Under the pieces are notes generated by a model. That model was not told where the DNA came from. It worked only from the letters and a program-made list of their open reading frames with translations, and did not search any database. Below, one piece after another: positions 10,775 to 53,036 of a stretch of 64,000 nucleotides of DNA (position 1 is the first letter of the stretch; each line of letters begins with the position of its first letter). Made by a program: the position numbers and the translations under genes. The DNA is from Salibacter halophilus (lineage in GTDB: Bacteria > Bacteroidota > Bacteroidia > Flavobacteriales_G > Salibacteraceae), in contig NZ_WACR01000005.1 in the NCBI RefSeq assembly GCF_008806325.1, forward strand, positions 186,001-250,000, given 5' to 3'.

Positions 10775-12232
10775 ATGAGTGATTTCAGAAAACTCACCAT
10801 AAGAGAGAAAGCGCTCAAGATCAACCTGGATCCTGAAATCTATGGTTCTTTCTCTGAAATTGGTGCCGGACAAGAAGTCGCAGGTACTTTTTTTCACGCT
10901 GGAGCATCTTCAGGAACTATTGCGCTAAGTCAGTCTGCTTATGACATGAAAATAAGCGACTCTATTTATGGTGAAAGTCCGCGTTACGTAAGTGCGCAAC
11001 GACTAAAAGCAATGCTCGTCAAAGATTACGACAATATTTGTTCTAAGCTCGATGAGCGAAAAGATAACTCGAAGTTTTTCGCTTTTTCCAACACGATTGA
11101 AACGTTAAACTTTTACAAAACTAACCAGGGACACGGCTGGCTGGGACTTAGATTTCAACTGAGTCCAGATTCAGAACCAAATACCTGTGTACTTCACTGT
11201 CAACTCAATGACAACGATACACTACTCCAACAAAAAGCAGTTGGAAGACTTGGTGTTAACCTGGTTTATTCGTGTTATTACCATCACGACAATAAAGAAG
11301 ATTTCCTCAAATCTTTAATGGACAGTATTGCGACCGGTCGTGTTGAAATTGACATGTTCAACATGGAAGGCCCTGATTTCAAAGACTGGGACAATCGTCT
11401 CATATCATTGAAATTAGTGAAAATGGGCTTAACTCCAGCTGCGATGTTTGGTCCGGATGGTAATAATTTACAAGCATCAGAAGTTCTTTACAAAAAGAAT
11501 ATTCTCGTGTTGAGAGGTCGTTTTCGTCCTCCAACTCTCGTGAATGTCGATATGTTTATGAGTGCTTATCGACAATTCAAAAAAGAAAAAGATGTAGATA
11601 AGGAAAACCTTACGGTTCTGAGTGAATTAACGCTCAACAACCTCATCAATAAGGGAGAAAAGATTGATGAAAAGGATTTCCTTGATCGCGTTGATATTTT
11701 GTGCTCGCTCGGTCAAACGGTGATTATCACCAATTTCCAGCGCTACTACAAACTTGTCACTTACCTCTCTAATATCAACAGAGAGCGTAAAATTGGTGTA
11801 ATACTGGGAATCAACAATCTCAAAGCTATTTTTGACCGCAAATTCTACACTCATTTAAAGGGTGGAATTTTGGAAGCGTTTGGTATGTTGTTCGGCAGGA
11901 ATGTAAAACTCTACGTTTATCCTGCCACCAATAGTGAGCACGATGGTCTTTACAATTGTGAGAATTTTGAATTACCTGATAAGCTCAAAGGTTTGTTTCA
12001 GTATTTAACAGATAACAAACAGCTAGAGGATATAACATCAGCGAATAAAAAGCTCCTCACAATATACAGCGATGATGTATTGGATATGATTAAAAATGGC
12101 CAGGAAGGTTGGGAAGAAATGGTTCCTACCAGAGTGGCTCATTTCATAAAAGAACACTGTCTTTTTGATTATCCCTGCTCCGTTGAGGAGAAAAAAGAGG
12201 CAAAAAAGAAGGAAAAAGAGCAGTACGCTTAA
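10775..12232 (+). CDS. Conserved cytoplasmic protein of unknown function
   Basis: A 485-residue protein without signal peptide or transmembrane segment. Blocks that look strongly conserved are IREKALKINLDPEIYGSF (about residue 10), EIGAGQEVAGTFFHAG with glycine-rich loop (about 29), GHGWLGLRFQLSP (about 117), GPDGNNL (about 227), LRGRFRPPTLVNVDM (about 245) and GGILEAFGMLFGRN (about 363). From memory, relatives in other Bacteroidota are sometimes labelled TonB-dependent receptor, which this sequence does not support: there is no barrel, plug or export signal. The C-terminus is lysine/glutamate rich. It stands alone, with a 114-bp upstream gap and a convergent 4-bp overlap with the next gene. 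Confidence 0.85.
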   Translation: MSDFRKLTIREKALKINLDPEIYGSFSEIGAGQEVAGTFFHAGASSGTIALSQSAYDMKISDSIYGESPRYVSAQRLKAMLVKDYDNICSKLDERKDNSKFFAFSNTIETLNFYKTNQGHGWLGLRFQLSPDSEPNTCVLHCQLNDNDTLLQQKAVGRLGVNLVYSCYYHHDNKEDFLKSLMDSIATGRVEIDMFNMEGPDFKDWDNRLISLKLVKMGLTPAAMFGPDGNNLQASEVLYKKNILVLRGRFRPPTLVNVDMFMSAYRQFKKEKDVDKENLTVLSELTLNNLINKGEKIDEKDFLDRVDILCSLGQTVIITNFQRYYKLVTYLSNINRERKIGVILGINNLKAIFDRKFYTHLKGGILEAFGMLFGRNVKLYVYPATNSEHDGLYNCENFELPDKLKGLFQYLTDNKQLEDITSANKKLLTIYSDDVLDMIKNGQEGWEEMVPTRVAHFIKEHCLFDYPCSVEEKKEAKKKEKEQYA

Positions 12233-12486
12233 GTGCTGCTCTTCTTTTTTAACCTTCCGTAAGATTTTTTGAGATTATCATGTAACGCTATGTGCTCCTT
12301 AATGGCATTATCATAGAATTCATCATCGAGCATTTCTTCCAACTCTTCTACTCCTGAAAATCCATCTTTGCTAACCTTGTAAGATTGCTCAATTGAGCCA
12401 CCTTCAAGTTTCACGACATACTTTTCGTTCATATCGAAAATTGTGACAGTAAAATTCTCGTTGGGTATCGTTTTTATGATTCTCAT
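12229..12486 (-). CDS. Small conserved hypothetical protein
   Basis: 85 residues, no signal peptide; an N-terminal strand-rich half (TVTIFDMNEKYVVKLEGG) then a helical acidic half (GVEELEEMLDDEFYDNAIKEH) and a basic tail. I do not recognise the family. Its ATG overlaps the yaaA stop by one base, so it is the second gene of that transcript, and its stop overlaps the convergent upstream gene by four bases. Confidence 0.7.
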   Translation of the reverse strand: MRIIKTIPNENFTVTIFDMNEKYVVKLEGGSIEQSYKVSKDGFSGVEELEEMLDDEFYDNAIKEHIALHDNLKKSYGRLKKKSST

Positions 12487-34821: not shown

Positions 34822-35499
34822 CTATTTTATATGTGGTCCAAGTTTTTCGATGATCGACTCCAGGATTTGCGGTTTCTGCTTTCTGCGGTATTGCATTACC
34901 CATCGCGGGTGAGGAACCGTATCGATTCGCTTGAACCAACCGTGTTCTTTATTGAGTTTTTCTAAAAATTTGAGGTTTTTCCCCTTGCCTATGCTGTAAG
35001 CGATTTCCCGATTTGCTCCAAAATCTATTTGCGCTTCAATCTGCTCTGTTATCCAATCGGTCAGAGCCGTTTCAAGCGGCTTCTCGTCATAGTAATTGAG
35101 GTTTTTTCCATCTTTCACAAAGCCGAGTGGGCAAACAGACCCGATGTAAAATGAATTGTAAAAAGATTCTGCACCGCCCAGAGCTTCGATCATTTCGTAG
35201 ATGAATTGAGATGATAACTCTGCTCGTTGATCAAAATCATTCTCCACTCCCAGTCTGTTCATCTGAACCGGATCAGTAAACGAAACACCTGTCACGCCAG
35301 CTCCAAACCTACCCGGGTTTATCCCGAACAAGAACGTGCGATCGTGATTACCAGCATAATAACGGTGAGCAAAGGAACTCACACATTCCTGTACTTCTCT
35401 ATCATCATAGGGAAATATCCAATCTACTCCATCCGGTAACTCGTCATTTGACGGTTCAATGGTGTTGAAATACTCTGCAAATCGATCTCCAAAACTCAT
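34822..35499 (-). CDS. SMUG1-like uracil-DNA glycosylase family protein
   Basis: About 225 residues with FLFGINPGRFGAGVTGVSFTDP near residue 57 (in parts LFGINPGRFGAG and GVSFTDP), matching motif 1 of SMUG-type uracil-DNA glycosylases, and a late VPHPRWVMQYRRK that fits the DNA-intercalation loop. It would excise uracil or oxidised pyrimidines. The start at 35499 (MSFGDRF) is preferred over 35550 since an exact -7 element (35532-35539) lies inside the longer form. Exact interspersed word at 35059 (ALT). First gene of a pair with the DsbA-like gene. Confidence 0.85.
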   Translation of the reverse strand: MSFGDRFAEYFNTIEPSNDELPDGVDWIFPYDDREVQECVSSFAHRYYAGNHDRTFLFGINPGRFGAGVTGVSFTDPVQMNRLGVENDFDQRAELSSQFIYEMIEALGGAESFYNSFYIGSVCPLGFVKDGKNLNYYDEKPLETALTDWITEQIEAQIDFGANREIAYSIGKGKNLKFLEKLNKEHGWFKRIDTVPHPRWVMQYRRKQKPQILESIIEKLGPHIK

Positions 35500-45694: not shown

Positions 45695-48439
45695 TTATTC
45701 TATCATTATCTTCATAACTCTTACATCCTGTCCATTTTGAAGGCTGAGGAAATACATTCCTGGAGTGAGATCAGACACGTTAAACGTATTTGTTTGAGAA
45801 CCTGTAATAGTTCTATTTTCGGTCAGAACCTCGCGTCCATTCATATCATTCAGCCTAACGTTCCACACTCCCTCCAAGTCGATTGCTTCAAGAGTGAAAG
45901 CATCACGTGCCGGATTAGGATACAAGTTGAGTGATCCTTTGCCGATATCTGAAATACCAGTTTCATCTTCAATAGTGATATTGATCGTGTCAGTTGCAGT
46001 ACAACCATTATTAGCAGTCACTACAACCCAGTAAGTTCCAGATTCATCAACATCAATCGTAGGTGAAGTTTCATTCGTTGACCAAATGATATTGGAGAAG
46101 CTACCGCTCGCTCCAATAGTAACAGTAGTATTAGTATCTATATCCTGACCAAGATTGATATTGATACCCTGCCTAACCTCCACCTGTGCAGATGCTGTAG
46201 AGCTACAACCGTATATATCTGTTACAGTTACATTGTAAGTGTTTTGAGAGTTAACTGCAATAGTTTCAGTAGACTCACCATTTGACCAATTGTAGTCATC
46301 AAAACCAACACCCGGACTCAAAACAATTGGATCACTTCCTGTGCACCAAAATGTATCTGAAAGCGAAATATCAGGAAATGGCTGCTTGATTACATTTAAA
46401 GTCCTCGTGAAGGAATCTGGACAGAAACCATCCTGAGAAACGGTTACACTGTAAGTTCCGGAGTCGTTAACAAAGAAGGTTTGATTTGAAGATCCATCGT
46501 GCCAGTTGAAGTCTGCTGATGGATTTTGAGCATTGAGCGTAAATCCAATATTTGCATTTTCACCGCAAAATGCAGTATCTCCACCAAATGATGGCTCTGT
46601 AAGATATGGTACTTCAATTACGTTGATTATACCAGTATCAACACAACCATTCAAATCACCATATACAGTATAGGTTCCCGCTGAATCAATCGTGAATGTT
46701 CCCCCCTGTGCTCCATTAGCCCAACTATAAGTGGCTCCAGGAGTATTAAGATTAACAGGAATACTAAAACCTGAAGCTTCTCCAACACAATATCCTGTAT
46801 CGGCACCTAATTCAACATCTGCAGTTGGTAATTCTATCACTTCTACAGTATCAGATAATGAAACACCGCATTTAGAAACTGTCACAGCATAAGTACCTGA
46901 TGTATCTACAGTAATACTTTGAGTAGTTGAATTATTATTCCAAGAATAGTTACCGCCATATACATATGCGTCTAAGTTCCAGTTGAGCGCTTCAGTTGGG
47001 CAGTATGTTGAATCTGGACCTAAATCGACTGTAAACTGATTTGTAGTTGCATTTCCAAATACTGGTCTAATACCTAATACAACCTGAAAGCCTGAACTTT
47101 CAAATGGTGTCCAGCTACCAGCAGGAACTTTGTAGTAACAAATATTTGGAACATACCCTTCTTGAGTAAACCCAAAACCGAGATTATTAGTGTTACGTTG
47201 ATCAACCGCGAAAAAATATTGACCTGGAGTCAACTCCTTATTACAGGTAAATTCAACGGTGTACCACCCCGGAGAAGAAGATGGAATAACAAAAATATCA
47301 CTTGAATCAATAAGTGTTGACGGAGTGCTACCCAACACATCATACAAATAGAATCGAATAGTATCTCCCATTTGAGGTGTTTCTAACCGAATATCAACTG
47401 AAGTTAGCGTATCCGTATTGTATATTTCAAATGTTTGACCGAATCTACCTGTTCCACCTGTAAAACCAATACCTCCTGAGAAGTTTCCTCTCTCTAAAGA
47501 GTAAACTGAATCAGTAACATTAAATTGATAATTGAGGGTATCATTATTTTGAAATGTATCAGATGCGGCAGTATTGAGTAAGAACTCTACATCATAATTA
47601 CCAGTACCTGATGGATAAAATGCAGAAGTTGTAATACTCGATGAGTTACCTCCGGCTATAGTAGAATTAGATGAACTAGAAAAACTACCTGTAGCTGAAG
47701 TAAAGCTAGCTGTTGCTCCAACTGAAGTTGATCCAGTACCATAATTCGTAATATTCCCAATAAAATTGATTGAGTCTGCTTGTTGAATAGGAATTTGATA
47801 ATAAGGTCTGGAAGCTGTCACCCCATCAAGACCAGCATCTTCAGAAGGCATTTCTACGAAAGTACAGTTGTCCACAGCAAAATCACCTCGACCTGTCTGA
47901 TATGAATCAGCAGAAAAGCGAACTTTTGTATTAGCCGTGTTGTAACTCGATAAATCTAATCTTTTATATTTCCACCTTTGATTTCGGTTGATGTGAGAAG
48001 GCAAGTGAATTGTGTCAATCGGTGTCCAGGTTGCTCCTCCTGTATTCACTTCAACAACAACATCGTAATAAGATGCTCCGTTACCGTAGTACCAAAAACC
48101 AAATCCAGGATTAGTAAATGATGTTAAATCTTCAGAGGGACTTTCAAGTGTAGCTGTATTCGTAACAGTTGGGCCAGGTGCATTTACTGAAGCCACAAAC
48201 ATATAATTTGATCCGTTGAAAGCTGTAGAAGGTCCTGTAGAAGTGCCAGAAGAAAATCCTGAACCTACCTCCCATCTATATTGCCCAGCTAAAGATGGTG
48301 AGCAAGTCCATCCATTTGTCAATGTCCCGGAAGAACCCAAAGTTAAATTATCAAAATCATAACTCTGGGCCTTTAATTCAGCTATCCAAAACGAACTGAA
48401 TAGTAATAAAGAAAATAGATTAAAGGTTAACTTTTTCAT
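45695..48439 (-). CDS. Large T9SS-secreted protein with Ig-like repeats
   Basis: 914 residues. Signal peptide to about 25. An N-terminal jelly-roll-like region (30-200) with GFGFWYYGNG and DFAVDN resembles MAM/adhesion modules, then CARDB-like strands (210-310). About five Ig/PKD-like repeats of about 75 residues follow (470-830), each with a Trp-containing turn (YSWNN, YSWANG, FNWHDG, YNWSNG, IIWSTNE), a SGTY-VTV ending and often one Cys pair. The final 80 residues are a type A sorting domain: LNLYPNPARD, NDMNGREVL and LTPGMYFLSL. Expected on the cell surface or released. Exact interspersed word at 45821 in the sorting domain (VLTE). Confidence 0.92.
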   Translation of the reverse strand: MKKLTFNLFSLLLFSSFWIAELKAQSYDFDNLTLGSSGTLTNGWTCSPSLAGQYRWEVGSGFSSGTSTGPSTAFNGSNYMFVASVNAPGPTVTNTATLESPSEDLTSFTNPGFGFWYYGNGASYYDVVVEVNTGGATWTPIDTIHLPSHINRNQRWKYKRLDLSSYNTANTKVRFSADSYQTGRGDFAVDNCTFVEMPSEDAGLDGVTASRPYYQIPIQQADSINFIGNITNYGTGSTSVGATASFTSATGSFSSSSNSTIAGGNSSSITTSAFYPSGTGNYDVEFLLNTAASDTFQNNDTLNYQFNVTDSVYSLERGNFSGGIGFTGGTGRFGQTFEIYNTDTLTSVDIRLETPQMGDTIRFYLYDVLGSTPSTLIDSSDIFVIPSSSPGWYTVEFTCNKELTPGQYFFAVDQRNTNNLGFGFTQEGYVPNICYYKVPAGSWTPFESSGFQVVLGIRPVFGNATTNQFTVDLGPDSTYCPTEALNWNLDAYVYGGNYSWNNNSTTQSITVDTSGTYAVTVSKCGVSLSDTVEVIELPTADVELGADTGYCVGEASGFSIPVNLNTPGATYSWANGAQGGTFTIDSAGTYTVYGDLNGCVDTGIINVIEVPYLTEPSFGGDTAFCGENANIGFTLNAQNPSADFNWHDGSSNQTFFVNDSGTYSVTVSQDGFCPDSFTRTLNVIKQPFPDISLSDTFWCTGSDPIVLSPGVGFDDYNWSNGESTETIAVNSQNTYNVTVTDIYGCSSTASAQVEVRQGININLGQDIDTNTTVTIGASGSFSNIIWSTNETSPTIDVDESGTYWVVVTANNGCTATDTINITIEDETGISDIGKGSLNLYPNPARDAFTLEAIDLEGVWNVRLNDMNGREVLTENRTITGSQTNTFNVSDLTPGMYFLSLQNGQDVRVMKIMIE

Positions 48440-48584
48440 ACTTGTTAAATTAGGGGTTGATTAATTCAAGCCCAATTTAACAAAAATTAGAAACTAAATG
48501 CTAAAAATAAAGAAAAGTAAGTTTTGTGATAGCCTTATATTTCAAACTCCACACCCAAAAGCAAATAAAATTTGGTGAATTGGT

Positions 48585-48614
48585 TTTGTAGTTCCAAAAA
48601 ACTTTTTACTTTTA
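48585..48614 (+). promoter_or_regulatory. Promoter of the candidate small RNA
   Basis: TTTG at 48585-48588 and TACTTTTA at 48607-48614 (one base from TAnnTTTG) are 18 bases apart. Transcription would start near 48619. Confidence 0.5.
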
Positions 48615-48618
48615 TCAT

Positions 48619-48711
48619 CACAATAGCCGACCAGTTTCTATGCTGGGAAGCAATGGTTCCAAGTTTTTCGATTAGTAGCGGAAAGGTATGGGGGTACCTT
48701 TCCGCTTTTTT
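48619..48711 (+). ncRNA. Candidate small non-coding RNA, about 92 nt
   Basis: A promoter-like element and a strong intrinsic terminator bracket about 92 bases with no ORF. Inside, ACCAG/CTGGG (around 48631-48646) and GGAA/TTCC (around 48645-48660) can form two small hairpins before the terminator stem. The terminator points away from the T9SS gene and is 187 bases before rpsP, so it serves no annotated gene. It does not show the SRP RNA or 6S signatures I know. It could instead be an attenuator for the rpsP operon. Confidence 0.5.
48677..48711 (+). terminator. Strong orphan terminator
   Basis: A perfect 12-bp stem (AGCGGAAAGGTA at 48677-48688 with its complement at 48695-48706), a 6-base loop, then a T run. 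The absence of a T run on the other side makes it specific to the plus strand. Confidence 0.88.
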
Positions 48712-48839
48712 AATGTAACTAACCCTAAATCCTAATCAACAATATTCACGCATATTTATCTCATAAGGTTGGGGCCATTTTTATTTTCATCAAAAAAAGT
48801 TGTTGTAATCTTCTCAGTTTAAAAGAAAGTCAGATATTT

Positions 48840-48880
48840 GCACTCCAAATTTTATTATTAACCGGGGTTTCGCACTCCAA
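48840..48880 (+). repeat. Direct repeat in the rpsP leader
   Basis: GCACTCCAA occurs at 48840-48848 and again at 48872-48880, 32 bases apart, 18 bases before the rpsP start. It might be a protein- or RNA-binding site; there is no other support. Confidence 0.35.
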
Positions 48881-48897
48881 CCAATAATTTTACAAAT

Positions 48898-52999: not shown

Positions 53000-53014
53000 T
53001 TTTAACGAAAAAAT

Positions 53015-53036
53015 GGCTGCTAATAGCAGCCTTTTT
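53015..53036 (+). terminator. Terminator-like hairpin in the DUF423 leader
   Basis: GGCTGCT (53015-53021) and AGCAGCC (53025-53031) form a perfect 7-bp stem with a 3-base loop, followed by TTTTT. It may end the DUF4476 transcript or act as an attenuator for the DUF423 gene. Confidence 0.7.

Follow-up and report, generated by a model that had tools for sequence, protein, structure and literature searches.

Small RNAs of the Bacteroidota are poorly charted; Hfq is often missing from these bacteria, and RRM proteins may replace it. In Bacteroides thetaiotaomicron, the RRM protein RbpB is described as binding small RNAs that combine an open seed with a terminator hairpin (PMC11697453). The account of the small RNA Rfp18 of Flavobacterium psychrophilum gives metalloproteases and an adhesin as its predicted targets (PMC9723704), and an S16 ribosomal leader of Flavobacteria is described as lying directly upstream of rpsP, where it is presumed to act in cis (PMC7247131).

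We analyzed a window of 64,000 nucleotides from Salibacter halophilus (the whole stretch of DNA under study), in which an earlier note had pointed to a stretch ahead of rpsP as either a small RNA or a leader of that gene. Comparison with relatives strengthened the first of these readings and weakened the second: positions 48619–48711 of the plus strand, located between a secreted-protein gene and the ribosomal-protein gene rpsP, very probably constitute a free-standing small RNA gene. The features of the window that bear on this proposal, counting the window copy among the five homologues, are the following:

48619–48711, plus strand: predicted small RNA of ~93 nt, with homologues in four relatives (model scores 98–112 bits)
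48585–48588, plus strand: −33 promoter element TTTG, read from the sequence and in the same place in all five homologues
48607–48614, plus strand: −7 box TACTTTTA, of the TAnnTTTG type, in the same place in all five homologues (predicted start 48619)
48626–48651, plus strand: 5′ hairpin P1, predicted to form in each of the five sequences separately (z −1.9 to −4.7)
48653–48675, plus strand: invariant core of 23 nt, identical in all five and mostly unpaired by pairing probabilities; candidate seed or protein site
48677–48706, plus strand: terminator hairpin of 12 bp with a covarying stem (all 60 cells paired; both sides changed in 6 of the 12 pairs)
48689–48694, plus strand: terminator loop UGGGGG, identical in all five homologues
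48706–48711, plus strand: T-tract T6, the predicted 3′ end, read from the sequence
45695–48439, minus strand: divergent gene for a 914-amino-acid protein with a MAM domain and a type IX sorting tail (Pfam PF18962, PF00629)
34834–34851, minus strand: weak candidate for a target site, which could form 18 pairs with the core around one bulge (−24.8 kcal/mol)

The predicted transcription unit

The promoter of the window copy has the Bacteroidota-type form TTTG-N18-TACTTTTA, and all five homologues fit TTTG-N18/19-TAnnTTTR, with the box predicted to end 36–39 nt 5′ of the core. Because the TAnnTTTG box of F. psychrophilum is placed at −12 to −5 from the start in the account of that species (PMC9723704), we predicted that transcription begins at 48619, which agrees with the boundaries and with the −33/−7 pair that the earlier note had put forward. 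A sigma-70 promoter scan found no promoter at the locus, which is no surprise in a member of the Bacteroidota.

The perfect 12-bp terminator described in the same note was borne out, with 48677–48688 pairing with 48695–48706 through 12 Watson-Crick pairs plus a possible U-G. Using a simple script, we found 18 terminator-like sites in the window, 14 of which lie no more than 80 bases from the point at which an ORF of ≥100 amino acids on the same strand ends. The small RNA terminator is the most distant of the 18 from any such ORF end (3765 bases), and none of the other 17 sites has a G-run loop. The claim that this terminator serves no known gene was upheld. Elsewhere in the window, a hairpin at 53010–53036 carries T-runs on both strands and is possibly a two-way terminator, and a similar one occupies 12212–12247.

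Folding of the strand from 48619 to 48715 gave −31.5 kcal/mol, compared with a shuffle mean of −21.0 (z −3.5), and none of 200 shuffles did as well. From the arrangement of boxes and terminator, we infer that the small RNA would be transcribed from ~48619 to ~48711 from a housekeeping-type Bacteroidota promoter.

Conserved structure and an invariant core

Two smaller hairpins had been proposed between the promoter and the terminator, of which comparison supported one: the P1 stem CCAGU/GCUGG, which joins 48631–48635 to 48642–48646 and is weakly extended to 48626–48651 by outer GC/GC pairs (48626–48627 with 48650–48651). The sequence of P1 differs in each of the five homologues, with the hairpin retained. 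When aligned to the covariance model, six of its nine pairs were changed on both sides, and 75.6% of cells were paired in this alignment, which was fitted to the model; the fraction is no higher because stem lengths differ among the homologues. At the terminator stem, sliding the partners as a control left 0 or 1 pairs with changes on both sides, as opposed to the 6 of 12 seen in register. Conservation of the hairpins in relatives, which had been named in advance as the test that could refute the proposal, thus held in all five genomes in which the RNA exists. An alternative 5′ helix that pairs the core (RNAalifold on A1) was rejected, as its pairs were broken in up to two of the five sequences at several positions and none had changes on both sides.

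Although mostly open, the core includes a segment, AUGGUUC, for which folding predicts partial pairing with the 5′ end of the RNA in four of the five homologues. Its 23 unchanged bases point to strong constraint, given that the rpsP genes of the same five genomes are 65–87% identical over 180 nt and 45–77% identical at third positions. Comparison of the five sequences establishes the predicted unit, its boundaries, its conserved structure and its invariant core.

One way to account for this constraint would be a short mRNA whose product, a small peptide, begins at the ATG within the core, because all five homologues share this ATG and the seven codons after it without change. The claim that the stretch is without any ORF was literally untrue, as a 48-amino-acid TTG frame (48572–48718) and short ATG frames cross the predicted RNA, but none of them behaves as coding. 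The frame from the core ATG is shifted by a one-base deletion just 3′ of the core in two of the five homologues, and in all five it runs past the T-tract before reaching a stop, which together argue that the constraint on the core is not on a protein. Moreover, the core codons contain no synonymous changes, despite the divergence of rpsP third positions. We therefore rejected the small ORFs within the RNA as coding and regard the peptide explanation as very improbable.

Distribution and genomic neighborhood

A DNA search of 60 genomes, including that of S. halophilus, returned strong matches in four others, G001, G002, G013 and G020 (E 4e-22 to 4e-14). A covariance model built from these four and the window copy scored strongly in exactly five of 42 genomes of the order, representing all three genomes of the same genus and both genomes of a second genus, and gave no strong match in the other 37. 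Across the class, sampled with 395 genomes, S. halophilus alone scored strongly, with no homologue found in any other. Scanning 84,980 species for exact matches to 21 bases of the core gave four records, which were metagenome assemblies named Flavobacteriales or Cryomorphaceae and which we took to be the same four relatives. No match to the small RNA was found in phage records, plasmid records or viral contigs, and a check of 61 loci surrounding homologues of rpsP or of the type IX-type gene found no diverged copy. The family is therefore narrow, seen in these searches in two genera of the Flavobacteriales, most of whose relatives are without it.

The S. halophilus genome has one copy. In G013, which was judged from two loci (L011 and L070), the intact RNA is followed, after ~130 bases, by a degraded second copy of the core and of some of the terminator stem (L070, 17853–17881), which agrees at 25 of 29 bases and has no terminator of its own.

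Weaker matches were considered and set aside. In the class sample, eight of the 395 genomes, S. halophilus included, reached E ≤0.05 with the model. The best of the others, G108 (37.7 bits), is a terminator behind a type IX-type gene and lacks the core, and the match in G112 is a G-loop terminator that lies between convergent genes and also lacks the core; neither was accepted as a homologue, nor were the remaining, weaker matches. The terminator of G112, a distant genome, has the same UAUGGGGGUA loop (L049, ~1560). A match in G034 in the scan of the order (E 0.05) was taken as chance. When up to three mismatches to the core were allowed in the 42 genomes, eight matches fell outside the family, and we attribute these to chance because a reversed control pattern gave the same count of eight. 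With up to two mismatches, the 395 genomes yielded S. halophilus and G043, and we rejected the site in G043, which has no terminator after it and resembles coding sequence.

The surroundings of the five copies bear on whether the RNA might instead be an attenuated leader of rpsP. The position in the window would suit such a leader, with rpsP on the same strand 190 bases downstream, and rpsP is also the next gene in G013 and G020. In G001 and G002, however, the gene that follows is convergent (we take it to encode an NRDE/TANGO2-like protein), and rpsP lies elsewhere with no such RNA ahead of it, so that in these two genomes the terminator has nothing to attenuate. We then surveyed the region upstream of rpsP in relatives, a comparison that the earlier note had recommended. 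This survey took in 30 loci, of which 26 were read; in the other four (L078, L089, L095 and L096) the start motif went unrecognized, and they were left out. Another six genomes matched rpsP but provided no locus. In all 26 readable loci, rpsP has the TTTGC of a −7 box of its own and a short leader, irrespective of whether the small RNA is present or absent. An orphan terminator upstream of rpsP was seen in S. halophilus and G020 alone among the 26, with L081 having one that ends an ORF. The convergent genes, together with the separate box and short leader of rpsP, exclude an rpsP attenuator in two genomes and make it unlikely in the rest, and as an explanation of the family we consider it scarcely credible.

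The rpsP gene of the window has a promoter-like TATTTGC box, a short leader and a small GGGGT/ACTCC hairpin at 48830–48897, and similar leaders precede rpsP in most of the 26 relatives read. No Rfam model matched this leader. It may be the flavobacterial S16 ribosomal leader, as the short leader and separate box found at all 26 loci fit what is described for that element (PMC7247131).

A more constant neighbor is the gene divergently upstream of the small RNA, which is of the type IX secreted-protein type in all five genomes (Pfam was run on the window copy), even where rpsP is not adjacent; the G020 gene is a shorter relative, not listed in the protein search at E 1e-8. This constancy raises the possibility of a local element, in which the divergent gene is controlled by the RNA or by the act of transcribing it. 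The G-loop pairs with the leader of the type IX-type gene in S. halophilus (three of 300 shuffles did as well) and, less strikingly, in G001 (14 of 300), but no such pairing was seen in G002, G013 or G020 (262, 243 and 260 of 300 shuffles as good, respectively), and pairing of the core with this leader was no better than expected in most genomes. Furthermore, the distance from the core to the start of the divergent gene varies from 191 to 403 nt among the homologues (214 in S. halophilus), and the closest homologue of the gene elsewhere, in G003, has no small RNA beside it. We consider local control improbable.

Possible modes of action and comparison with known RNAs

The explanation that we favor, with modest confidence and from sequence comparison, is that of a free-standing small RNA acting in trans through pairing of its core with mRNAs. 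The RNA of ~93 nt would fold such that the 5′ hairpin and the 3′ terminator hairpin flank the mostly open 23-nt core, which would then serve as a seed for pairing with mRNAs near their start codons, perhaps assisted by the invariant G-rich loop of the terminator. A search for Hfq found none in the five genomes with the small RNA, of which two have ratings of ≥90% completeness and ≤5% contamination; the same search was positive in five control genomes. Because Hfq was not found, a single RRM-domain protein becomes a possible partner, and each of the five genomes encodes one RRM_1 protein.

Seeds used for pairing are usually short. The core and the 6-nt loop, both without any change, are longer than such seeds, and we found no complementary site common to the five genomes, which raises the alternative that an autonomous small RNA binds a protein, for example the RRM protein, through its core and G-loop and titrates or modulates that protein with no mRNA pairing. 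The single RRM_1 protein in all five genomes would suit this alternative, but the RNA is present in a single copy per genome where this was checked (S. halophilus), and we regard protein binding of this kind as unlikely, though the strongest competitor of pairing in trans.

Searches for mRNA partners of the core did not single out a gene. Exact complements of 10 and 12 bases of the core numbered 26 and 10 in the five genomes; the RNA itself accounts for five in each set, and no gene common to several of the five genomes was among them. Two complements near start codons, each in a single genome (C151 of G020 and C152 of G013), were left as chance, and longer matches to the core, in C219 of G001, C159 of G002 and others, had no gene in common. 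One locus in C219 of G001 (L180, 1346–1377) contains a perfect inverted repeat with arms of 9 bp; its loop of 14 bases matches the core and its flank, with 17 bases in all identical to the RNA, and the locus is probably coding sequence. Around the starts of the type IX-type and rpsP genes, pairing was not consistently better than that of shuffles.

The candidate site at 34834–34851 lies at the end of a UDG-like gene, from −34 to −17 relative to the start of a DsbA-like gene, and 18 of 19 core bases could pair there. Its energy was equaled by one of 400 shuffled cores over 45 gene starts of the window, which are a hand-picked subset of 69 ORFs (ATG starts, with overlapping frames left out). The site was found post hoc and falls within ordinary codons, and one site as good would not be surprising genome-wide by chance. 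We treat the UDG-like/DsbA-like junction as an unproven lead and claim no specific target for the small RNA.

A fuller picture, which we offer as a doubtful one, would combine these elements: an Hfq-free small RNA family of two Flavobacteriales genera that acts on multiple mRNAs through its frozen 23-nt core and G5 terminator loop with an RbpB-like RRM partner, that forms one module with the gene for a type IX-secreted surface protein, and that counts the junction at 34834–34851 among its targets. Whichever way the RNA acts, an invariant 23-nt core within a covarying frame offers a clean test object for how partners are found without Hfq, and the locus illustrates that an orphan terminator together with a TTTG/TAnnTTTG promoter can reveal a real RNA gene in raw sequence.

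The covariance search against Rfam that had been suggested for this locus gave no match in the window at the gathering score (Rfam 15); with E allowed up to 10, the best weak match scored 17.9 bits, against a cut-off of 40, and lay on the opposite strand. A limited literature search turned up no published description that we recognized as this RNA.

The S16 leader, described ahead of rpsP and rimM within the Bacteroidota (PMC7247131), resembles the Salibacter RNA in its placement. Unlike that leader, the Salibacter RNA carries a predicted promoter and a terminator of its own, and in two of the five genomes (G001 and G002) it is present with no rpsP beside it; it is predicted to be a separate unit and not part of the rpsP mRNA. 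Rfp18 is likewise an independent intergenic small RNA of the Flavobacteriales, with strong structure and conservation across species, but is described as pairing through its third stem-loop, which, compared by description, differs from the core of the Salibacter RNA (PMC9723704). Nearest in layout is FopS/GibS of B. thetaiotaomicron, also from the Bacteroidota, for which the published account gives its own promoter and an open conserved seed followed by an intrinsic terminator, in a host that, like Salibacter, is Hfq-free and has an RRM protein (PMC11697453). The same account describes 14 paralogues and an open 5′ end for FopS, whereas the Salibacter RNA has one copy (in S. halophilus) and a 5′ hairpin; this comparison, too, is by description, with Rfam 15 giving no match for the Salibacter RNA. 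The likeness to RbpB-bound small RNAs is one of analogy, not of membership, and by its predicted architecture the Salibacter RNA is a new family of a known kind.
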